Origin: Peredibacter starrii
GTDB taxonomy: Bacteria > Bdellovibrionota > Bacteriovoracia > Bacteriovoracales > Bacteriovoracaceae
Assembly: GCF_034259205.1 (NCBI RefSeq)
Contig: NZ_CP139487.1
Coordinates: forward strand, 3,720,001 to 3,784,000
Length of the DNA: 64,000 nucleotides
Direction of reading: 5' to 3'
The translations under genes and the position numbers were made by a program. Under the pieces are notes generated by a model, which made no database searches, was not told the DNA's origin, and was given only the letters and a program-made list of their open reading frames with translations. Position 1 is the stretch's first letter, and every line of letters starts with the position of its first letter. Below, piece after piece: positions 10,085 through 58,542 of this stretch.

Positions 10085-12406
10085 TTACCAACCTCCGAAC
10101 GACCCGCCAATTCCTAGTCCAGCATTTAGAGAGATACCAGCGTTCATTGGGTTGTACATAGCTGAGCCACCCATAGTGCTCATCTGATAACCAGTTCCTT
10201 GCATTTGTAGCATGCGATCGTAATTCGCAGCATTTTGGCTGTTAGCAAAATCAGCATAACCACCATTCATACCGCCGTACATTCCACCGGCCGCACCAGC
10301 AGCGTAGTATCCGCCTGCAACACCAGCGTTGTAGTAACCACCGCCTACGTTACCTGCAGCAATGTAACCACCATTCATACCACCGTACATTCCGCCGCCG
10401 TATAGACCACCACCATATAATCCGCCGCCTGCAATACCACCGGCAATCGAGATACCGTTTACAGCACCACCTGCGATACCGTTACCACCATATAGGCCAC
10501 CGCCATAAAGACCGCCGCCGTATAATCCACCACCGTAAAGACCGCCACCATATAGGCCGCCGTTATACATACCACCGTTGATACCACCGGCAATTGAGAT
10601 ACCGTTTACAGCACCACCCGCGATACCAGAGTTGTATCCACCGTATAGACCGCCACCTGCGATACCGCCGTAGAGACCTCCACCATAAAGACCGCCACCA
10701 TATAGTCCGCCACCCGCGATACCACCATACAATCCACTATTGATACCACCAGCAATCGAGATTCCGTTTACAGCACCACCCGCGATACCACCGTTGTATC
10801 CACCGTATAGACCTCCACCTGCGATACCGCCGTAAAGACCACCACCCGCGATACCACCAACAACTCCACCTACGATACCGCCACCGTATGGATTATATCC
10901 ACCGTATGGTCCCATCATACCGCCAATGAATCCTGGAGTATAACCAGCTCCATACCAACCGTTCAGACCACCACCAAGACCAGCGTACTGACCAAGGTTA
11001 TAACCGTTACAGTTCATATTCGCTTGTTGAGCAGGAGTTAATCCTGGAAGCTCGTTTGATTGTAGGTATTGCATGTAATCTTGTTGAGCAAGACGACACT
11101 GCTCGAAGCCCGCTTCCGCAGCACCGGCCCATGCCTTCTGCGATTTATAACCAAAGTAACCAGAAATACCTGCTACACCGATTGGAGCAAGAGCACCGAT
11201 AACTTCTGCAACACCAGATAGAGTACTTTGTTTACGAGAACCAACACCGCAGTTCACGCAATCAGTTGTGCTATATCGACCCATGATTTCACCACTCGCA
11301 CCAGCAGTACAAGCGTTCATGTTTCCGCCTGAAGAACACTCGAAGCGACTGTTAAGACGCATCCATTCTTCACACATTTCAAAATCTTTTTTCTTAGTAG
11401 GATTGATACAGTAAGCAGGACGGTTATCACCGCGACCGCCGCCAGCTCCTACACCACCAGCAATTGAACCACCGATATTGATACCGCCAGCTACGCCACC
11501 AGCAACACCACTTGCAGCACCACCACCAACGATGATTGTGCCTCCGCCTGAACCAGCACCACCAGCAGCATGAACAGTCATACCAGATGGACAAGCTGAA
11601 CCAGTTACAGAAACAATTTTACCAGAAGCATCTTTACACACGATCACACCAGTTTTTACTGTCACACCTTTTCCAAGGCCAACACTAGAGTCACCGATGA
11701 CTTTTCCGTCTTTATCTTTTGGAAGATATTCGCGCTTAACTTTATAAACACCAGGGTATTTAAGAAGACACTCTACGCAAGACTTTCTTTCAAAACCTTC
11801 TTTCTTTTGAGTCCAAAGAGTTTTCCAGTCACGCTTAGGCTTACATTCTGAGTAACATAGGTCACCCGGATTAAGTCTGCCCTCGCCTTCCAGCTCTTCA
11901 CAATAAACGGCATCGTTCGCACCAGCACCTGAACCTGAAGCAGATCCTGAAGCAGATCCAGAAGCAGAGCCCGACGCTGAACCAGATGCAGAACCTGAAG
12001 CTGAGCCAGAGGCCGAACCAGATGCTGATCCTGAAGATGAACCAGATGAAGAGCCTGACGAAGAACCACTAGATGAACCAGAAGAAGAACCTGAAGAGTT
12101 ACCAGCACCGTTAGTATTGAAGTTACCATCTACGATAGACTTCGCCACACACACTGACTTGGTTGCTTCAACGTTTGCCTCAGGGCCCGCGGCACCATCA
12201 GGAATTTGTAAACGACCATCGGCCGCATTTGTTTTTTTACATGTCACTTGTCGACAGTATTTATCCCCTTGCTCTTGCATCGTACCCATGGAGTAGGCAC
12301 CACCCTTTGAGCGACAGAATTCAACCGCTTCATCGGTGAATGAATCCGCCATTGCACTCGAAAGAGGGATCATTAGTCCTAAAAAAAGAGGGATAAACTT
12401 ATTCAT
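10085..12406 (-). CDS. Large secreted Gly/Ser/Tyr repeat protein
   Basis: The chosen ATG at 12406 has a TAGGA ribosome-binding site and opens a clean signal peptide (MNKFIPLFLG to SSAMA), giving 773 residues; an in-frame TTG five codons earlier lacks these features. Order of parts: Cys-containing N-terminal region (about 20-100), a (SGSS)n then (SGSA)n linker (about 103-160), a Cys-rich middle (about 165-470, many CxxC-like pairs and a Gly/Val/Ala stretch), and a C-terminal half (about 475-755) built from GGGLYGG units and three copies of IAGGAVNGISIAGG. Such Gly/Tyr repeats occur in extracellular fibre or sheath proteins. It is a single-gene unit. Repeat number may vary by recombination. Function unknown; surface or extracellular structural protein is my inference. 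Confidence 0.8.
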   Translation of the reverse strand: MNKFIPLFLGLMIPLSSAMADSFTDEAVEFCRSKGGAYSMGTMQEQGDKYCRQVTCKKTNAADGRLQIPDGAAGPEANVEATKSVCVAKSIVDGNFNTNGAGNSSGSSSGSSSGSSSGSSSGSSSGSASGSASGSASGSASGSASGSASGSASGSASGSGAGANDAVYCEELEGEGRLNPGDLCYSECKPKRDWKTLWTQKKEGFERKSCVECLLKYPGVYKVKREYLPKDKDGKVIGDSSVGLGKGVTVKTGVIVCKDASGKIVSVTGSACPSGMTVHAAGGAGSGGGTIIVGGGAASGVAGGVAGGINIGGSIAGGVGAGGGRGDNRPAYCINPTKKKDFEMCEEWMRLNSRFECSSGGNMNACTAGASGEIMGRYSTTDCVNCGVGSRKQSTLSGVAEVIGALAPIGVAGISGYFGYKSQKAWAGAAEAGFEQCRLAQQDYMQYLQSNELPGLTPAQQANMNCNGYNLGQYAGLGGGLNGWYGAGYTPGFIGGMMGPYGGYNPYGGGIVGGVVGGIAGGGLYGGIAGGGLYGGYNGGIAGGAVNGISIAGGINSGLYGGIAGGGLYGGGLYGGGLYGGIAGGGLYGGYNSGIAGGAVNGISIAGGINGGMYNGGLYGGGLYGGGLYGGGLYGGGLYGGNGIAGGAVNGISIAGGIAGGGLYGGGLYGGGMYGGMNGGYIAAGNVGGGYYNAGVAGGYYAAGAAGGMYGGMNGGYADFANSQNAANYDRMLQMQGTGYQMSTMGGSAMYNPMNAGISLNAGLGIGGSFGGW
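10380..10890. repeat. Imperfect tandem repeats coding for GGGLYGG and IAGGAVNGISIAGG units
   Basis: On the plus strand the unit reads as variants of ccaccgtatagaccgcc, repeated many times, interspersed with three near-identical blocks (about 10435-10480, 10578-10625, 10740-10790) coding for the IAGGAVNGISIAGG module. The repeats differ mostly at third codon positions, so they are old enough to have drifted but are conserved in protein sequence. Confidence 0.85.
11925..12100. repeat. Short-period repeat coding for the Ser-Gly-Ser/Ala linker
   Basis: Twelve-base units coding for SGSS (upstream part) and SGSA (downstream part) of the secreted protein. Synonymous codon changes interrupt perfect identity. 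A linker of this type usually gives an extended flexible spacer. Confidence 0.85.
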
Positions 12407-49897: not shown

Positions 49898-50436
49898 GGA
49901 AGTTGAGCGGCCAGGTTCTTTACTTCATCAGATACTTTAGCGTCTGAAATAGGAAGAAAGATTTCCCAGTTATTGATTTGCGTAAGTGTTTTTTTCCAAC
50001 ACACAGCTCGGATGGCCGGAACTAGATCATCGTTCTCAGCACAGCTCTTCATAAACTTCAAAGTCTCTTCGCGCTTTGCAGGATTGGCATTGGCCTCATC
50101 AATCAACTGGCCAATTTTCATTCCACCCTCGACGATAAAATCAGGAGTGTGGTGAACTTCCTCATCGGTCAGACCTTCCAGATCTCTGAGTGACGGAAGC
50201 TCCGTCATCTTAACTGAAAGTTCTTTTGGATCAGTAGATGGAGTTGAAGTCGTTGGGGCCACCTTAGGAATCGCCGGTTTGTGATCGTGGTCATGATCGT
50301 GATCATGCTGCTCAGTCGTCTTTTCAGACTCTGTTTCAGAAACCGTCGTTTCAGTGGATTTGTTTCGGAGAAACATCATCGCCCCGAGAACCAGGGCGAT
50401 GACGACAACAAGTGATAACTTGGTTTTTCTATTCAT
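49894..50436 (-). CDS. Membrane-anchored protein with His-Asp repeat
   Basis: The 180-residue product has one N-terminal membrane helix (about 7-24), a Thr/Ser/Glu-rich linker holding HDHDHDHDHK (about 44-53), a Pro/Thr/Ser stretch and a C-terminal helical domain with two cysteines (KSCAEND, RAVCWKK). The His-Asp tract is a typical metal-binding run and should lie in the periplasm. It is the second gene behind the HEXXH protein at 50436, overlapping it in TAATG, so the two are translated together. A metallochaperone-like or metal-buffer role for the protease is an inference from this arrangement. No family recognised. Confidence 0.72.
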   Translation of the reverse strand: MNRKTKLSLVVVIALVLGAMMFLRNKSTETTVSETESEKTTEQHDHDHDHDHKPAIPKVAPTTSTPSTDPKELSVKMTELPSLRDLEGLTDEEVHHTPDFIVEGGMKIGQLIDEANANPAKREETLKFMKSCAENDDLVPAIRAVCWKKTLTQINNWEIFLPISDAKVSDEVKNLAAQLP

Positions 50437-51569
50437 TACTTTCTAATCTTAAGAGAACGATCCATCATCTGTTGAGAAGCTTGTAGAGAAATTGCCTGCC
50501 ACTGACCTTCTGGTCTTGGGTCTAGGATGATGTTCTTGCTTGGCATATTTGAAGGAACATTTCTCTTGTCGTTTTCTAGCTGAGCGATGCGAGCTTCAAG
50601 GTTTTTGATTTCAGCATCAATTTCAGCTTGAACGTCAGGCTTCTGAGAAGGACGCATGGCCTTATATTGCTCGATTGTTTGTTTCTTCTGGTCAATCTGA
50701 GTCTGAATCACGAAACGCTTAGCATCAGGCGTAAGTTTCAGAATACGGTTTAATGAATCTGCAACCTTCACAGTCAAAGCACCAAGTTCTTTTTCAGAAC
50801 ACTTCGTACAGTTCATAAGCATGTGCTTCTCTGAAAGACCGCCAACTGTATAAGAACCGTTTACTGAGAATTCACAGGCCGCAGCACCTTTATACGGGTG
50901 ATTTGGAGGACAGATATCGTGTGTGAACGAGTTGCTCTTCCCGTTACCGTCAGAGTGACGAGCTTCGTGGAAAAGTGTTCCTAGACGAGAAATTGAGTTC
51001 GCAGGTGCATTTACGTCAGGATTAAGAAGGAAGCGTGGAAGGAAAAGACCTTCACCAACTTGAAGAAGTCCAACGCGTGCAGAAGTAAGCATTACTTTCT
51101 CACCGTCGAAGTTAACACCTAGAAGAACGTTGGCCTGCTTACCCATAAGGTAAACTGCGCCACCGAGGTTAGACATAACAACAACTGGTTTATTCTCTTT
51201 GCTCTTTTCACCGTCAGCTTGCATTGACGAGAAAGCATCCGGAAGCGGAGTATTTGGAAATTTGTAACCAGAGGTCTGAAGAACAGTTCTGTCATCAAGC
51301 TGGTAGCTTTCGCCAACGATATAGCGAACACGGTTTACAAGCCAGTTATGCATGTTAGGACCATCGCCCTTAGTAACCTGGGCCGTGCCCATGAAGATAG
51401 GATCTGGTCTTGTAACTGGAGTGTTATATAAATAACCCAAATCAACTTTAAGTTGATCGATTTGAACTTTAGGCATCGAAGAGTGAAATTTCATTCCACC
51501 GAATTCAGTCGCAGCAAATGCAGACGTGAGGGTGGTAGCAGCTAGAGTAAGTACAGCAAGTAGTTTCAT
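50436..51569 (-). CDS. Secreted HEXXH putative metalloprotease, paralogue A
   Basis: The 377-residue product has a signal peptide (about 1-19) and the motif LFHEARHSDGNG (His201, Glu202, His205), a zinc HEXXH site in a helix, followed by a Cys-containing region (DICPPNHPY, AACEFSVNGSYTVGGLSE, MNCTKCSEKE) and a C-terminal coiled coil (about 300-355). Strongly similar along its length to the neighbour at 51761. The third zinc ligand is not obvious; His216 or a Cys/His after it are candidates. I know no named family for this pair. Cotranscribed with the His-Asp-rich gene. Its GAAAGGAATG start has AAAGGA close to the ATG. Confidence 0.75.
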   Translation of the reverse strand: MKLLAVLTLAATTLTSAFAATEFGGMKFHSSMPKVQIDQLKVDLGYLYNTPVTRPDPIFMGTAQVTKGDGPNMHNWLVNRVRYIVGESYQLDDRTVLQTSGYKFPNTPLPDAFSSMQADGEKSKENKPVVVMSNLGGAVYLMGKQANVLLGVNFDGEKVMLTSARVGLLQVGEGLFLPRFLLNPDVNAPANSISRLGTLFHEARHSDGNGKSNSFTHDICPPNHPYKGAAACEFSVNGSYTVGGLSEKHMLMNCTKCSEKELGALTVKVADSLNRILKLTPDAKRFVIQTQIDQKKQTIEQYKAMRPSQKPDVQAEIDAEIKNLEARIAQLENDKRNVPSNMPSKNIILDPRPEGQWQAISLQASQQMMDRSLKIRK

Positions 51570-51760: not shown

Positions 51761-52897
51761 TTATTTAAGAGATTTTTCCATCAACTTCGATGATTGCTTA
51801 ACAGTCATCTCAGAGAATTTTCCTTCCGGAGTGGCATCGAAATCGGCCGGCTTCTTAGAAGGGCTGTATGAAAGATTTGCGATCTCTTTTTCAAGTTGAG
51901 CAACCATTTCTTTGAGTGCATTGATCTCACGTTGGTAATCAGCACGTCTCTCTGGAAGGATTGTGATGATGTTCTCGTAAGTCTGAATAAGACTCTTGTA
52001 TTGCTCAACTTGAGCAAGCATTACCGCTCTCTTCTGAGCAGCAGCGAGATCAATCACGCGGTCAAATGAATCAAGAACCTTTACTGCAAGACCAGATAAT
52101 TCAGTTTGAGAACAGTCTGTACAGTTTTGAAGAAGCTGACGTTCAGCAAGTCCACCAATTGTATATGAACCATTACCTACGATCTCACAGGCGGCATATC
52201 CACCGTATGGGTGACCATCAGGACAAACCTTGTGCAAGAAACCTGTCGATTTACCATTACCATCACTGTGACGAGCTTCATGGAATAGAGTTCCAAGACG
52301 AGAGATTGAATTTGAAGAGGCCTTTTCATTATCTTTGTTGATCATGAATCTTTTTAAGAAAAGACCCTCACCAACCTGAAGAACTCCTGTTCTTGCAGAA
52401 GTCACGTAAACTGTTTCATTATCCAGTTTCAGACCGAATGGAACCTTTGCTTTCTTACCAACTAGATAAAGAGCTCCACCAATATTTGTCATGACAGTTT
52501 TAACACCACCATCATCTTCGCCTTCATCGTTCACACGAGAAAGTAATTCGAAACCTTCAGGCATTGGAGTTTCAGGAAATTTGAAGAACAGAGCGCGTCT
52601 GATGCTAATCTCGATATTTTCTTCTTTAAGCTCATAGCTCTGACCCACGATATAGCGAACACGATTAAGGAGCCAGTTATGCATGTTCTTTCCATCTACC
52701 GCTTGCATCTTAGTCGCGGCCAGGAAGTCGTTATCAACTTTTAAAACTGGATTTTGATACACATAACGAAGGTCGTTTTTCAGAATATCGATCTGTTTTT
52801 GTTCAACAGATGAGTGGAATGTGACCCCACCAAATTCAACATTTGCGAATGCAGGTGCCATAGAAACGGCAAGTGTGAGAGCTGCAAGTAACTTCAT
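51761..52897 (-). CDS. Secreted HEXXH putative metalloprotease, paralogue B
   Basis: A 378-residue paralogue of the product at 50436: same signal peptide type, shared blocks MHNWLLNRVRYIVGQSYEL, TSARTGVLQVGEGLFLKRF and NSISRLGTLFHEARHSDGNG in pieces, and the same HEARH site (His206, Glu207, His210), Cys pattern (KVCPDGHPY, AACEIVGNGSY, QNCTDCSQ) and C-terminal coiled coil. The N-terminal part differs more, including an acidic insertion (NDEGEDDGG, about 122-130). It has its own terminator and an AGGAGAAT ribosome-binding site, so it is transcribed independently. Tandem duplication with divergence is the simplest history. Confidence 0.77.
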   Translation of the reverse strand: MKLLAALTLAVSMAPAFANVEFGGVTFHSSVEQKQIDILKNDLRYVYQNPVLKVDNDFLAATKMQAVDGKNMHNWLLNRVRYIVGQSYELKEENIEISIRRALFFKFPETPMPEGFELLSRVNDEGEDDGGVKTVMTNIGGALYLVGKKAKVPFGLKLDNETVYVTSARTGVLQVGEGLFLKRFMINKDNEKASSNSISRLGTLFHEARHSDGNGKSTGFLHKVCPDGHPYGGYAACEIVGNGSYTIGGLAERQLLQNCTDCSQTELSGLAVKVLDSFDRVIDLAAAQKRAVMLAQVEQYKSLIQTYENIITILPERRADYQREINALKEMVAQLEKEIANLSYSPSKKPADFDATPEGKFSEMTVKQSSKLMEKSLK

Positions 52898-52973: not shown

Positions 52974-55385
52974 CTAGCGACGTTGATCTAAAACCTGGCT
53001 GATTTTGCCAGTTCTGGGGTTACGAGGAATTGCACCTGATTGCACTGAGGTAAGTAGGATGTCTTTCTTAAATTCCATTAGCGAGATTGTATCTTTTACA
53101 TCCCGAGAGCGCTGATAAAGATCCTGAATCAAGGTCTCCTGATCAAATTCTGTTTGGCCTTTCTCATAGGTAATCGAAAGTTTCTCTCTTACGACATTGG
53201 CCTCGCGACTTTCGGTAATTTTAATCTGAAAAGTGAGAACCCCTCGGTCACTCATTACCGCCTCAACGTCTGTCGTAAGTAATCGGCATGACCAAATCTG
53301 GATCACGTTGTCCACGCGACCCAAAAGCTTAAAGCGCTTATCTAGACTTCCACATTCACAAGTGCCTTCGATCCATTCAATCTTATCGCCGGTGCGGTAG
53401 TTCTTTATCGGCATGGTATTGCGAGCATAAGAAGTTACGATAGCTTCTTCTTCTACGATGTTGAGTTCCACCAAATCACTAAACAAGTGATGCTCACCAT
53501 GACCAGAATGGGAACACTGATATCCAATAACCCCAGCATCCACTGAAGCATAACCAGCAGAACCAAAAAATTTCGTGTTCCAGGTCCGAGTGAGATAATC
53601 TTTTCTAATTTCTGAAAGGGCCTCACCAGCATAGAAGATCATAGGAACTTCGATCTTCTCCCCTTTCTCTTCCATATATTCAGCATTCATGACCAACATC
53701 GATGGAATTCCCATCACGACATCGGGCCTAAATTTTTTAAGGTAAAGAAGAATGTTATCAGTAGTGCACATGCCGCCAATAGGTAGTTGAACCGCGCCAA
53801 TTTTTTCAAGAGCTCGCTCAACACACATGAATGATGACCAGAGATTTCCGGCCACAAATAAATTGGCCACCGTCATTCCCGGACGAACGCCCTGACGAAT
53901 GAGGTTTGAGGCCAGCATATCACTCATATAATCAAACTCTTCGTAACTAAAATGAACAAATTTTGGTTCACCAGTCGTTCCGCCAGAAGAGAACACATAC
54001 CCACGGGGACGTTCTGATTTTTCAAAATGTGATTTCAGAGTCGTAGAGTTTTCGACTTCTAAAATTTCTTCGCCATAATTCTGAGCACGGATTTCATCGC
54101 CAATGAAATTCACCAGTTCGCGAAGTACGAAACGACCATCATGAGGAGCACCATCCATTCCGAATGTGACTGTTCCAAGAGGAGCGAACCGTTTGATTCC
54201 TGTAAGTGAAAGAGTCTCCAGGTATTGAGACTTTTCATCGGTGCCTAATAGATAAGAGCAAGACTGAAGATAGTATGAAAACGGTTCTAGAAGTGAATAA
54301 AGCTCTTCCAGGTCTTTAAAACGCTTCACGATGAGTGAACGGTGAAGAGGCGAAGGCTTCAATAATTTATTTTGCTCTAAATGAATAAGGTGTTCAGGAC
54401 CTGAAGAAACTTTTCCTGCTTCCATCAGTTCAGAATAAAGACCGCGATATTTTTCTTTTAAAATTTCAGTGGCCTCATCATCCGAGATCGTTCCGCGAGA
54501 AGGAGCTTTCAAGAAGGCCCGCTCTAAGGCGCTTAGAAGTTTGGCCTCATCAACGCCTTCTTCTAAATAAAGGTTTTGCGGAGATGCGCAAGCTGACTGG
54601 TCCCAAGGAAGAATATCGGCCACGATCTTCTCTGCCACTACTTCAAGGTTCTTGCCTAGAAGCCCGGATTTAGAAATAAGTTGAAAAGAAATCTTCGGCC
54701 CAAAGTCCAAAAGTTTCACCTGCTTTGGAAGATCTTTCTGGTAACTCGCGATCATTTCCTCACCGCCCCAGGCGATGATGGTATTTACTTTGGACTTAAT
54801 GAAAGTTTCGGTTTCAGAATCTCCGCCCTTCCAATGAAGGACAGCGAATTTATCCGAGAGAATTTTATTTTTATCAAATGCCTTAAGCTTTTCAGCAAAA
54901 AACAGAGGGAAAAATTGATTCTGACTACTCACTTTCACGATGGAGAGATTCTTAGTGAGGAACCCCATGATGAGTGAATCGATTGAACTTAAGAATACAT
55001 TTCCGGCAGTCACATGGAGGACAACCCCATTAGCAATCGCACGAACTTTCCCGCTGCCATAAGGGAGTTTCGTAAATCGATCGAGGACCGCAGGACGAAC
55101 AAACTCTGCTTTGATTCTTTTTTCTAAACTCTCCCGCGACAAAAGCCCAGGAAGAAGTGAAAGAGTTTTTTCTGTTTCTTCAAGTGAGAAACCTGATTCA
55201 AGGATCAGACGAGGTAGGGCCTCTTGTGATAGAGTCGTCCATTCTTTAGAAAAAGAATCCAGGAGTTCAATGATGGAATCAATTGAAGTCGCATGAAGAG
55301 CACGGCGTTTTTGAGACAGAGAAGACCATTTGGCAGAGTCTTGCCATTCCTTCTTATCTGATAAATTTTCGCCAAACCAAAACAT
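52974..55385 (-). CDS. LuxC-type acyl-CoA reductase fused to an adenylate-forming (PaaK-like) domain
   Basis: Residues 1 to about 430 match LuxC/aldehyde-dehydrogenase-fold acyl-CoA reductase: GVVLHVTAGNVFLSSIDSL, WGGEEMI, and WDQSACASPQNLY with candidate nucleophile Cys266. Residues about 455-803 match phenylacetate-CoA ligase-like adenylating enzymes: FSSGGTTGEPKFVHFS (466-481, P-loop), IGGMCTTDN, FYAGEALSE, FFGSAGYASVDAG, YRTGDKIEW and a zinc-like CECGS. In luminous bacteria LuxC makes aldehyde from acyl groups delivered by LuxE. Here 803 residues join the reductase and an activating domain. It overlaps luxE-like in TAATG, and no luciferase (LuxAB) or LuxD is in the window. The substrate and final product are unknown. 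Confidence 0.85.
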   Translation of the reverse strand: MFWFGENLSDKKEWQDSAKWSSLSQKRRALHATSIDSIIELLDSFSKEWTTLSQEALPRLILESGFSLEETEKTLSLLPGLLSRESLEKRIKAEFVRPAVLDRFTKLPYGSGKVRAIANGVVLHVTAGNVFLSSIDSLIMGFLTKNLSIVKVSSQNQFFPLFFAEKLKAFDKNKILSDKFAVLHWKGGDSETETFIKSKVNTIIAWGGEEMIASYQKDLPKQVKLLDFGPKISFQLISKSGLLGKNLEVVAEKIVADILPWDQSACASPQNLYLEEGVDEAKLLSALERAFLKAPSRGTISDDEATEILKEKYRGLYSELMEAGKVSSGPEHLIHLEQNKLLKPSPLHRSLIVKRFKDLEELYSLLEPFSYYLQSCSYLLGTDEKSQYLETLSLTGIKRFAPLGTVTFGMDGAPHDGRFVLRELVNFIGDEIRAQNYGEEILEVENSTTLKSHFEKSERPRGYVFSSGGTTGEPKFVHFSYEEFDYMSDMLASNLIRQGVRPGMTVANLFVAGNLWSSFMCVERALEKIGAVQLPIGGMCTTDNILLYLKKFRPDVVMGIPSMLVMNAEYMEEKGEKIEVPMIFYAGEALSEIRKDYLTRTWNTKFFGSAGYASVDAGVIGYQCSHSGHGEHHLFSDLVELNIVEEEAIVTSYARNTMPIKNYRTGDKIEWIEGTCECGSLDKRFKLLGRVDNVIQIWSCRLLTTDVEAVMSDRGVLTFQIKITESREANVVREKLSITYEKGQTEFDQETLIQDLYQRSRDVKDTISLMEFKKDILLTSVQSGAIPRNPRTGKISQVLDQRR

Positions 55386-56485
55386 TACTTCTCCAACAGT
55401 TCGAGGGCCTTTAGTGCACAGCCCTTGTGTTTTGATACACCGGCGCGTCCTTCAAGAATCAAGACATCACCTTTTATTCCACAAGCACATTCACCTACTC
55501 GACCATAATCAGTGGTAAGAAGGCTTGGAGCTGGATAACTAAAATTATAAGAGCACAGAAAATGTAAAAGACCTCTTTCACCTTTGGGTCTTAAACTCAA
55601 ATCGTGAGGCGAACGAACAAACACTCGGGCATAATTCGGAATATGAAGATTTCCCAGCTCGCAATCAACATAAGGTATACCGTGCTCAACCATTCCGAAA
55701 AGATCTCGTTGATTCTTTTGCGGAATTCCTAAACGCTCTTCAATGAACTTTCTAAACTCCTTCTTGGGAATTTCCTTATCTGCTTTACCCTTCCAACCTC
55801 CCCCGGTTTGTAACCAAGAGTCTGCTCCAAGGTCGAGCTTGATATCATGTTTTTCAATCATCTCGAATAGCAAGGCAGGAAAGCCCAAGATACGAGTCGA
55901 AGTGCCTGAGGCGGCAAAACGCTTCAAGGCCTCAATCACACCTTCTTCATTAAGGGCGAAATCCTGCTTATCTTCTTGCCACTGAATGGCGTAATAAACT
56001 TCTTTTTTGCCGGTGAAGTTCGTTAAGAGCTCATCCGTAAAAGCAGTTCCCAGGTCATTTGCGACCTTAGGATCATAGGTGAAGCAAAGGTAGTTATATT
56101 CTTTATCACTCGCCATCCCTAAGGACTGATGAATGGTAAGAGCGAGCTTTTTCACATTATTAAGGCTTTGTTGATCAAGAAATTGCTGAGACTTTTGTCC
56201 ACCGGTACCAGAACTCGTCAGAGTTAAAACGAGATCTTCTTTTTTAGCAGTTCTTAGCTCATGTTCTTTATATAAGTGCACCATCGTGCCCGGAACTTTA
56301 GTAAGGTCTTCTTCCGTTTTAATGCTAGACGGATGAAAGCCTAACTTGTCCCAAAGCCTTTTCGTGAACGTATGATTGTTATAGTGATGAAGGGCATTTT
56401 CCTTAAAACTCTCAAGGAAGAGTGCCCGAGAAGCCCCAGAAAATTCAAATGGGTTTGAATTAAGAAGTTTCTCAGTTGGGGTCAT
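55385..56485 (-). CDS. LuxE-family acyl-protein synthetase
   Basis: The 366-residue product has the LuxE length and layout. The adenylation motif is LTLTSSGTGGQKSQQFLD (about 86-103), followed by LGMASDKEYNYLCFTYDP and GWLQTGGGWKG-like motif LQTGGGWKGKA (about 225-235), DLFGMVEHGIPYVDCE and DYGRVGECACG. The C-terminal HKGCALKALELLEK keeps a Cys about ten residues from the end (Cys356), which is where LuxE of luminous bacteria carries the acyl group on its way to LuxC. That supports a working acyl relay to the adjacent LuxC-type domain. ATGA overlap with the GNAT gene upstream and TAATG overlap with the reductase downstream. Confidence 0.87.
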   Translation of the reverse strand: MTPTEKLLNSNPFEFSGASRALFLESFKENALHHYNNHTFTKRLWDKLGFHPSSIKTEEDLTKVPGTMVHLYKEHELRTAKKEDLVLTLTSSGTGGQKSQQFLDQQSLNNVKKLALTIHQSLGMASDKEYNYLCFTYDPKVANDLGTAFTDELLTNFTGKKEVYYAIQWQEDKQDFALNEEGVIEALKRFAASGTSTRILGFPALLFEMIEKHDIKLDLGADSWLQTGGGWKGKADKEIPKKEFRKFIEERLGIPQKNQRDLFGMVEHGIPYVDCELGNLHIPNYARVFVRSPHDLSLRPKGERGLLHFLCSYNFSYPAPSLLTTDYGRVGECACGIKGDVLILEGRAGVSKHKGCALKALELLEK

Positions 56486-57615
56486 AGGTTTAATAATTTT
56501 GGATTTAACGACATCCGCTTCCAGGCATTGAAATACTCTTCCAAATAAACTTGATTAAGGCCCTTTAAGCGCACGTTTTGGAAATCAAAGATCTCAAACG
56601 AGCGACTAAAAACCACGAAGTCATGACGACGATCTCCCACCTTCTGAAAGGCAGGGAAAAGGCCACACGGAATGAACTTCGCTCTTAAAATACTCTCTAA
56701 AATCTTTGGACGATCTGCTCTTGCAATGACTTCAATATAACGAGCACCGGCGTCTCTCAAAAGTTTATTGGAACGAAGGAAGAGATCCGTGAAGTTAAGG
56801 TTTCCAGGCATCTTACCGCCAACAATCACGCAATAGCCGTCGACACTTGAAAGATGGCAGAACAACTCTACCGATTGATCGGGAGTCAGGATCACAAGAT
56901 TTGGTTGATGAAACGGGAAGAACTCAAACTCTAATTGTTTTTCGTTCTTCAGATGCTGATAACGGTAGTTCACAAACTTTGGAGATTTCACCACTTCCAA
57001 GTCACCTGGCTCAACCAAAACTTTAGAGGGCTTATCTGGGATGATGGTTTCCAGAGCACCCATCCCCACTTCATTTTGAACAATATCATAAAGAGAAGCG
57101 ACTTCATGATGGATCATGTAGCTTTTGTTTCTCTTCTCCAAGGCCTCAGGATAAACAATTGCCGCCAGACAATGAGTCTCATAATCATTCGTTCGATGAG
57201 CATTAGGAAAAATCCCTAACTTTTTAAAGCCCAATTTCTCAGTCAAAGTTTGGGCCGCTTCGTTTACAGTTCGAGTGGTCGAATAGATCACATCCACGCC
57301 ACCGGTTTTCTCACGGAGATATTTAATTCCGTATGCAAGAAGCTCTTCCATGATGCCACGTTGGCGATATTCATTTCTCACCACTGCTCCAAAGGCCTTG
57401 GCGATCAAATTTTCTTTATCGTACGCAGTGAGAACTGAAGCAATGATTTTACCATTGTCCTTGGTCACGAACCAGAATCCCGCCTCGGATTGAATGAACT
57501 GACGGATAAGGCCGAAGTCCTTCATCAAAGGATCAGGATACGTTCCTTGATATACATCAAAGTAAAGCTGAGATATCTGAAAGATGTCTTCTTCGGTGGC
57601 CAGTTGTAGGTTCAT
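56482..57615 (-). CDS. Two-part GNAT acetyltransferase heading the LuxE/LuxC-like operon
   Basis: The 377-residue product has an N-terminal GNAT domain (about 1-160; AVVRNEYRQRGIMEELLAYGIKYL as the acetyl-CoA motif A, cut RNEYRQRGIMEELL, then AAQTLTEKLGFKKLG) and a C-terminal half (about 200-365) whose order of strands and closing DFVVFSRSFEIFDF suggest a second, degenerate GNAT-like fold. Substrate unknown. It is the first gene of the operon and overlaps luxE-like by four bases. An acyl-transfer step on the same lipid or amine as the reductase module is inferred. Divergent from the AlkB-like gene, sharing a 102-base region. Confidence 0.78.
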   Translation of the reverse strand: MNLQLATEEDIFQISQLYFDVYQGTYPDPLMKDFGLIRQFIQSEAGFWFVTKDNGKIIASVLTAYDKENLIAKAFGAVVRNEYRQRGIMEELLAYGIKYLREKTGGVDVIYSTTRTVNEAAQTLTEKLGFKKLGIFPNAHRTNDYETHCLAAIVYPEALEKRNKSYMIHHEVASLYDIVQNEVGMGALETIIPDKPSKVLVEPGDLEVVKSPKFVNYRYQHLKNEKQLEFEFFPFHQPNLVILTPDQSVELFCHLSSVDGYCVIVGGKMPGNLNFTDLFLRSNKLLRDAGARYIEVIARADRPKILESILRAKFIPCGLFPAFQKVGDRRHDFVVFSRSFEIFDFQNVRLKGLNQVYLEEYFNAWKRMSLNPKLLNL

Positions 57616-57675: not shown

Positions 57676-57704
57676 TTGACTCCGAAAAGCAATATAAGTA
57701 CCTT
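57676..57704 (+). promoter_or_regulatory. Weak promoter-like pair before the AlkB-like gene
   Basis: TTGACT (57676-57681), 17-base spacer, TACCTT (57699-57704). The expected start near 57711 leaves about seven bases before the ATG at 57718, and there is no Shine-Dalgarno. Confidence 0.35.
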
Positions 57705-57717
57705 ACTTTCCATCCTT

Positions 57718-58542
57718 ATGAAGAATGTCACCACCCCAATGGGGCTTTATTATCAATTTCCTTTCGTGGACCGGAAAGAGCGGGCCCAGATTCTGGCCTG
57801 GCTTGAGACCCTTCATCCACTATGGGAAATGCGATTTTCAGAACACAACCCACCTCCGGAAGGTGATGAGCAGCGACCGCTTTTGAGACCCGTTTACTGG
57901 CTGGGAAACTGGCAGTTTGCTTGTTTAGATTATTATCATCCACCTAAGGGAATCCTTCATCGCTGTGTTCGCGCAGAAACTTATCCCCCACTACTTCAAA
58001 AACTTGTGGATCGAATTGAATTCATCGCCAAGAAGCGTTTCCCGAAAAGTTACTTCCCTGAGAAATGGAAACTCAATACATGTCTCATTAATTTCTACGG
58101 GAATAAATTTGAAGACGGCAAATGGGTCGATCGCGCTCGCGTTGGCGAACACAAAGATTTTGAGCCAGGACCGGTAGGATCACTGTCTCTGGGAGATCGC
58201 GCTTTCTTTCAATTTGTGAATGGGAAATCGACTCTGGGTGAAGACAATATTGTGTTCTCACAGTGGCTTGAAGATTCTTCGCTTCAAATTTTTGGTGGCG
58301 ATAAATGGAAGATGAAAACTTTCCATCGCGTTCAGAGAGTTGAAGATAAACGTAAGGAAACCCTCGGCCCTAAAATTGAAAACTTCCAAACTCGCAGGAT
58401 TAACTTCACTTTCAGATACGTTCCTGAGGAACACATCTATCAATTGAAAGATATGCCGGCCCCTAAGCTTCAGGACATCCGTCCCTATTTGGAGACCCTG
58501 GCCCAGAACTCTACCTACTTTAAAAAGCTTATAACCCCTTAA
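57718..58542 (+). CDS. AlkB-like 2-oxoglutarate/Fe(II)-dependent dioxygenase
   Basis: The ATG at 57718 gives 274 residues; an upstream in-frame TTG at 57676 coincides with the candidate promoter. Iron and 2-oxoglutarate residues are in the AlkB order: GEHKDFEPGPV (HxD, His145/Asp147), KTFHRVQRV (His203) and RRINFTFRY (Arg227 and Arg233 as in RxNxTFR). LNTCLINFYGN and DSSLQIFGGD complete the family pattern. AlkB enzymes demethylate alkylated DNA or RNA; others act on protein. It diverges from the LuxE/LuxC-like operon; a functional link is only speculation. Confidence 0.87.
   Translation: MKNVTTPMGLYYQFPFVDRKERAQILAWLETLHPLWEMRFSEHNPPPEGDEQRPLLRPVYWLGNWQFACLDYYHPPKGILHRCVRAETYPPLLQKLVDRIEFIAKKRFPKSYFPEKWKLNTCLINFYGNKFEDGKWVDRARVGEHKDFEPGPVGSLSLGDRAFFQFVNGKSTLGEDNIVFSQWLEDSSLQIFGGDKWKMKTFHRVQRVEDKRKETLGPKIENFQTRRINFTFRYVPEEHIYQLKDMPAPKLQDIRPYLETLAQNSTYFKKLITP

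Follow-up and report, generated by a model that had tools for sequence, protein, structure and literature searches.

A GNAT, LuxE and LuxC/PaaK operon recurring across Bdellovibrionota and its possible peptide aldehyde product

In the 64,000-nucleotide stretch of the Peredibacter starrii contig NZ_CP139487.1 analysed here (positions 3,720,001 to 3,784,000; hereafter the window), we characterized a minus-strand operon (52974-57615) encoding a tandem GNAT acyltransferase, a LuxE-like acyl-protein synthetase and a fusion of a LuxC-type reductase to a PaaK-like adenylating domain. The enzyme classes of the three genes are secure, and the gene set is real, conserved and apparently undescribed; no description of it was found in the literature searched, which left out most subscription papers. 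We tentatively propose, at a probability of roughly 0.4, that it is a compact route, free of nonribosomal peptide synthetases (NRPSs), to the N-capped aldehyde of an amino acid or very small peptide, with substrate, product and role as we infer them from the enzymes. In its parts the operon is closest to LuxE/LuxC, and in its logic to peptide-aldehyde pathways.

Enzymes encoded by the operon

The GNAT gene comes first (56482-57615, 377 aa), followed by the LuxE-like gene (55385-56485, 366 aa) and the fusion gene (52974-55385, 803 aa), all on the minus strand. The GNAT stop overlaps the LuxE start (ATGA) and the LuxE stop overlaps the fusion start (TAATG); this is a three-gene operon with tight translational coupling, and its coordinates agree exactly with those given by an earlier reading made from the letters alone (the sequence-only reading). 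A promoter scan found fewer sites than in shuffles and was uninformative.

The LuxE-like protein belongs to the LuxE family, with a strong Pfam match (PF04443, E=2.3e-30, 106 bits against a cut-off of 24.9), an SSGT motif and the acyl cysteine, and it matches the LuxE of Photobacterium phosphoreum (PDB 7xc6_E, 2.8e-17). C356 (codon 55418-55420, minus strand), the presumed acyl-accepting residue, aligns with the KGC-L acyl-Cys motif of that luminous enzyme, and S91, S92, G93, T94 and C356 are invariant in 45/45 LuxE proteins, in keeping with the earlier claim of an acyl-protein synthetase that keeps its C-terminal cysteine near residue 356. The score against the equivalog for long-chain-fatty-acid--protein ligase LuxE (NF052244) is 80.1 bits, far below the cut-off of 550. 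LuxE proteins of the cassettes described below are 33-56% identical among themselves and 19-22% identical to luminous Photorhabdus LuxE (about 20% for the window) and to the LuxE of a Pantoea operon consisting of LuxE, LuxC and a short-chain dehydrogenase/reductase (SDR).

The fusion protein is, as had been read from its sequence, a LuxC reductase joined to a PaaK-like ligase; profiles, fold and catalytic residues all agree. Its first part (residues ~1-435; 54081-55385, minus strand) was delimited by profile, alignment and fold, and belongs to the LuxC acyl-CoA reductase family: residues 31-425 match PF05893 (E=3.8e-66, 224 bits against a cut-off of 21) and the catalytic C266 (codon 54588-54590, minus strand) aligns with the catalytic Cys region (ACxSxQ) of P. 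phosphoreum LuxC (7xc6_A). Against the equivalog for long-chain fatty-acyl-CoA reductase LuxC (NF052251) it reaches 119.9 bits, with a cut-off of 750. The second part (residues ~440-803; 52977-54068, minus strand) matches Pfam AMP-binding only weakly (1.9e-4, below cut-off) and the PaaK profile TIGR02155 better (residues 464-802, E=2.1e-22, 79.3 bits against an equivalog cut-off of 646). It is a PaaK-like member of the adenylate-forming superfamily by motifs, lysine and fold, with G468/G469, D667, R690 and K794 invariant; the last (codon 53004-53006, minus strand), the catalytic Lys of adenylate-forming enzymes within RTGK, aligns with the TGK of PaaK 2y4o. The AlphaFold model of the fusion (pLDDT, the predicted local distance difference test score, 90) superposes on the LuxC chain 7xc6_A of the LuxC-LuxE complex with Z 40.8 and a root-mean-square deviation (rmsd) of 5.0 over 428 residues, and its residues 433-802 superpose on the PaaK-type ligases 4rvo_B and 2y27_A with Z ~35 and rmsd 2.8 over 344 residues. 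The domain thus shares fold, SSGGTTGEPK motif and catalytic Lys with the PaaK phenylacetate-CoA ligases, but it is only ~18-19% identical to them, is fused to LuxC and lacks most of the usual N-terminal stretch, its alignment beginning at PaaK position 80-85. Because C266 and K794 never vary in 48 fusions, both halves look catalytically alive.

The first gene encodes the two-part GNAT expected from its sequence. PF00583 matches residues 13-130 (E=1.2e-12), and the AlphaFold model (pLDDT 91) has two GNAT-like halves, the first of them similar to many acetyltransferases. In the structure comparison (VIA-align) the top rows tie within 1 Z and mostly cover the first half alone, so that no single relative stands out. 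The best NCBIfam match is a beta-lysine N-acetyltransferase (1.2e-8, below cut-off).

The closest characterized parts are those of P. phosphoreum LuxC-LuxE, with which the window shares both proteins, the catalytic cysteine in each and the LuxC fold. The operon nevertheless differs from the bioluminescence pair in the fusion of LuxC to a ligase, in the presence of a GNAT and in having no luxA or luxB. Neither gene lies beside it in the window, so it is not a bioluminescence operon, and the sole luciferase-like protein of the genome, encoded at a distance of 1.3 Mb, is a member of a family that most bacteria have. The earlier statement that luxA, luxB and luxD are missing therefore stands for the first two around the operon; for luxD thioesterase, the search matched neither the source genome nor the control genomes.

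A cassette with several subtypes

We surveyed a sample of 291 Bdellovibrionota genomes with the fusion protein as query. A match was present in 104 of them, about 84 at E <1e-30 as counted from the table of matches; within the genus, 16 of the 18 sampled genomes, source genome included, reach that threshold. We then inspected 46 loci, window included, a few of them truncated where a contig ends. The arrangement GNAT, LuxE, LuxC/PaaK hardly varies and recurs across the phylum, and the GNAT and LuxE genes overlap or abut in all 36 loci where the junction could be measured. A gene order that recurs with coupled junctions in 36 loci is not due to chance.

Trees of the adenylating domains, LuxC and LuxE concur on at least three subtypes. 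Most type I loci have a stand-alone PaaK next to the fusion. The stand-alone PaaK of type II is of a different kind and is usually accompanied by a major facilitator superfamily (MFS) protein; four of the five type II loci also encode a 480-aa protein that contains a GNAT region and is related to an HATPase_c_2/GNAT protein of locus L057 (see below). Type III, to which the window belongs, consists of the three genes alone, and its fused ligases form their own branch. Beyond the three genes, many relatives encode a separate PaaK-like ligase, a dedicated MFS exporter, or the two together. The rest of the source genome yielded neither another LuxC or LuxE nor a stand-alone PaaK of this kind, and a search for a close MFS partner gave weak matches only (21-23% identity). 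A type I cassette (L051, 7040-13035) shares its chromosomal site and flanking genes with the type III cassette of the window (52974-57615), the two hosts representing two genera of one family, and the cassette proteins are 27-38% identical. Either replacement in place or fast divergence could account for this.

Cassettes also occur in other phyla. On three megaplasmids of the Streptomyces group PaaK, MFS, GNAT, LuxE and LuxC/PaaK follow one another, a Salmonella IncFIB/FII plasmid (CP054717) carries LuxE, LuxC/PaaK, PaaK and GNAT, and in Salmonella CP053580 LuxE, LuxC/PaaK and PaaK are annotated. The Streptomyces and Salmonella cassettes belong to type I, and the MFS proteins of 11 loci are of the same family as that of the Streptomyces cassette. 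In Escherichia coli genomes an insertion-sequence end alone matched the Salmonella cassette and a distant search was empty, while phages gave nothing beyond partial, distant matches. Given these plasmids, the fused architecture is not unique to the source genome. The earlier statement that no described system has this architecture is uncontradicted by the literature searched, but the architecture itself is widespread.

One relative bears on the substrate. An unfused LuxE/LuxC pair, encoded on a plasmid of Streptomyces europaeiscabiei (L090), nests inside type I with Shimodaira-Hasegawa-like approximate likelihood ratio test (SH-aLRT) support of 99 for LuxC and 95-97 for LuxE. Its neighbours encode a SagB/YcaO-type protein, an MNIO (DUF692) maturase, an MFS protein and a 53-aa peptide (11564-11725) with four (D/E)FPFR repeats. 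Shuffled versions of this peptide contained three equal 4-mers in 48/100,000 cases, and the Arg codons of the four repeats all differ (CGC, CGA, CGG, CGT), for which reasons the repeat looks kept as protein. At this one locus, the position of LuxE/LuxC beside an Arg-ending repeat peptide suggests that a peptide C-terminus may be reduced to argininal, which is the warhead in both leupeptin and antipain; the 53-aa peptide is a possible ribosomal precursor of a peptide aldehyde.

Proposed pathway and its alternatives

We propose that the GNAT would transfer an acyl group, probably acetyl, from CoA to the amine of an amino acid and so cap it, and that the PaaK-like domain of the fusion would activate a carboxylate as acyl-adenylate or CoA thioester, enabling amide formation. 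LuxE would then activate the last carboxylate with ATP and load it onto C356, from which the acyl group would pass to C266 of the LuxC domain for NAD(P)H-dependent reduction to the aldehyde. In relatives, the dedicated MFS protein might export the product, and the aldehyde could inhibit proteases, as leupeptin and antipain do, or form a pyrazinone-type signal by cyclisation. The amino-acid substrate, the order of steps, the product, its export and its biological role are all inferred. No NRPS condensation domain was found in the source genome.

Several observations argue for this pathway: active-site residues invariant over ~45 loci, coupling in 36 of them, the added PaaK-like ligases and MFS proteins of relatives, the distance of this LuxE subfamily from the luminous and LuxE-LuxC-SDR types, the relative in a peptide locus, the beta-lysine N-acetyltransferase match of the GNAT, and the lack of an NRPS condensation domain in the genome. 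An Angewandte paper by Li and colleagues from 2020 reportedly described leupeptin as made by discrete ligases and accessory enzymes. Leupeptin-type peptide aldehydes are known bacterial products and protease inhibitors, and in Klebsiella leupeptin is the product of a leup operon (PMC11480411, PMC10548850). By its description, leupABCD of Photorhabdus, Xenorhabdus and Klebsiella (cited in PMC11480411 and PMC8283571) would be comparable to the proposed pathway, being a set of four genes plus a transporter whose product is an acyl-peptide aldehyde. The livipeptin cluster of Streptomyces lividans 66 is likewise a minimal set, including an N-acyltransferase, for a predicted N-acyl peptide aldehyde, but it employs an NRPS-like adenylation-peptidyl carrier protein-reductase (A-PCP-R) protein and a tRNA-dependent transferase rather than LuxE/LuxC (PMC10548850).

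Other points weigh against the peptide aldehyde. The window subtype has neither a stand-alone ligase nor a linked exporter. The link to peptide modification comes from one locus, whose FPFR peptide is a putative LuxE/LuxC substrate and whose pair, linked to a ribosomally synthesized and post-translationally modified peptide (RiPP), is of subtype I, with 33% (LuxE) and 22% (LuxC) identity to the window protein. The leupA primer encodes MKIAIHN (PMC8283571), a sequence unmatched in the Salmonella cassette, and we did not file the operon as leup because of this difference; with 3 mismatches allowed, the leupA and leupB primers of that paper found no match in the Salmonella cassette and so did not identify it as leup. 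We consider doubtful the broader idea that an NRPS-free cassette spanning the phylum (GNAT, LuxE, LuxC/PaaK, in many cases with PaaK and MFS) produces protease inhibitors or signals of the peptide-aldehyde class, that predatory Bdellovibrionota keep it at a single chromosomal site, and that its LuxE/LuxC pair is also found in a ribosomal-peptide cluster, where FPFR would be turned into an argininal.

The sequence-only reading had called the operon a fatty-acid reductase. Its description of a LuxE/LuxC operon without luciferase and with a fused second adenylating domain, intact catalytic residues and a likely aldehyde or N-acyl product stands, while the fatty-acid part is questionable in view of the equivalog scores and of the closest unfused LuxE/LuxC relative, which sits beside peptide-modifying genes and the FPFR peptide. 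In that reading, which we consider unlikely, LuxE and the LuxC domain would convert a fatty acid to its aldehyde in the synthesis of an envelope lipid or signal, with the PaaK domain and the GNAT producing an N-acyl or ester derivative. Folds and residues are indeed those of the P. phosphoreum fatty-acid reductase, and luciferase-free LuxE-LuxC-SDR operons occur elsewhere. However, both proteins fall far under the curated fatty-acid cut-offs, this LuxE subfamily is equally remote (~20% identity) from the luminous and the LuxE-LuxC-SDR types, acyl carrier protein (ACP), SDR and lipid genes are absent from the operon, and one subfamily member resides in the peptide-modification locus.

The same activation, capping and reduction could instead yield another exported small molecule that is not a protease inhibitor, such as an N-acyl amide, alcohol, cyclic imine or pyrazinone signal. 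This draws on the same enzyme evidence as the peptide aldehyde, and is consistent with the linked MFS exporters of relatives, the SpoIIE and STAS signalling genes of one relative operon and the pyrazinone signals also produced by the Klebsiella leupeptin operon (PMC11480411). No single product is directly supported, and we regard this reading as quite unlikely.

Known uses of LuxE and LuxC away from light include the O-antigen of Vibrio cholerae (RfbN) and the islands for flagellin glycosylation in Aeromonas and Enterobacteriaceae (PMC4772473, PMC7874193, PMC4875605). A pathway of this kind, in which the GNAT would attach activated, reduced short acyl groups to a surface sugar, is improbable here: LuxE, LuxC, AMP-ligase and acetyltransferase do co-occur in such loci (same sources) and in a Deinococcus locus (L094), but in those sets they are surrounded by sugar genes and accompanied by ACP and SDR. 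No glycosyltransferase, sugar-nucleotide, ACP or SDR gene was recognised beside the window operon or as conserved in its relatives, and LuxE of such sets is 25-27% identical to the RiPP-linked subtype-I LuxE.

Were the peptide-aldehyde proposal correct, predatory bacteria would gain a conserved small-molecule pathway with a testable product, and LuxE/LuxC chemistry would stretch from light-emitting fatty aldehydes to peptide aldehydes. The LuxE subfamily and the LuxC/PaaK fusion would then offer a sequence handle for protease-inhibitor pathways likely missed by NRPS-based tools.

Neighbouring genes and other LuxE contexts

In one Bdellovibrionota family (L057, 4350-16134), the cassette lies within an eight-gene run that includes an MFS protein and an unannotated 456-aa adenylating-looking protein. 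The run also holds an RsbW-like HATPase/GNAT fusion, a dCache-HAMP-SpoIIE phosphatase and a STAS protein, and these neighbours link the cassette to partner-switching signalling.

Directly downstream of the window operon, two paralogous, probably secreted proteins of 377 and 378 aa are encoded on the minus strand (50436-51569 and 51761-52897). The pair carries a HEARH (HExxH-like) motif and is conserved in eight loci; assignment to known proteases was rejected, as there was no convincing family or structure match. On the other side, the gene for an AlkB-type 2-oxoglutarate (2OG)-Fe(II) oxygenase (57676-58542, plus strand) diverges from the GNAT gene, with 60 bp between that gene and its start. 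In 14 loci it remains close to the cassette, one of them with another cassette subtype. Another light-free LuxE context was seen on a Priestia plasmid (L091, 4681-10613), where LuxE accompanies a fatty acyl-AMP ligase, a carrier protein, an oxidoreductase and a cysteine desulfurase.

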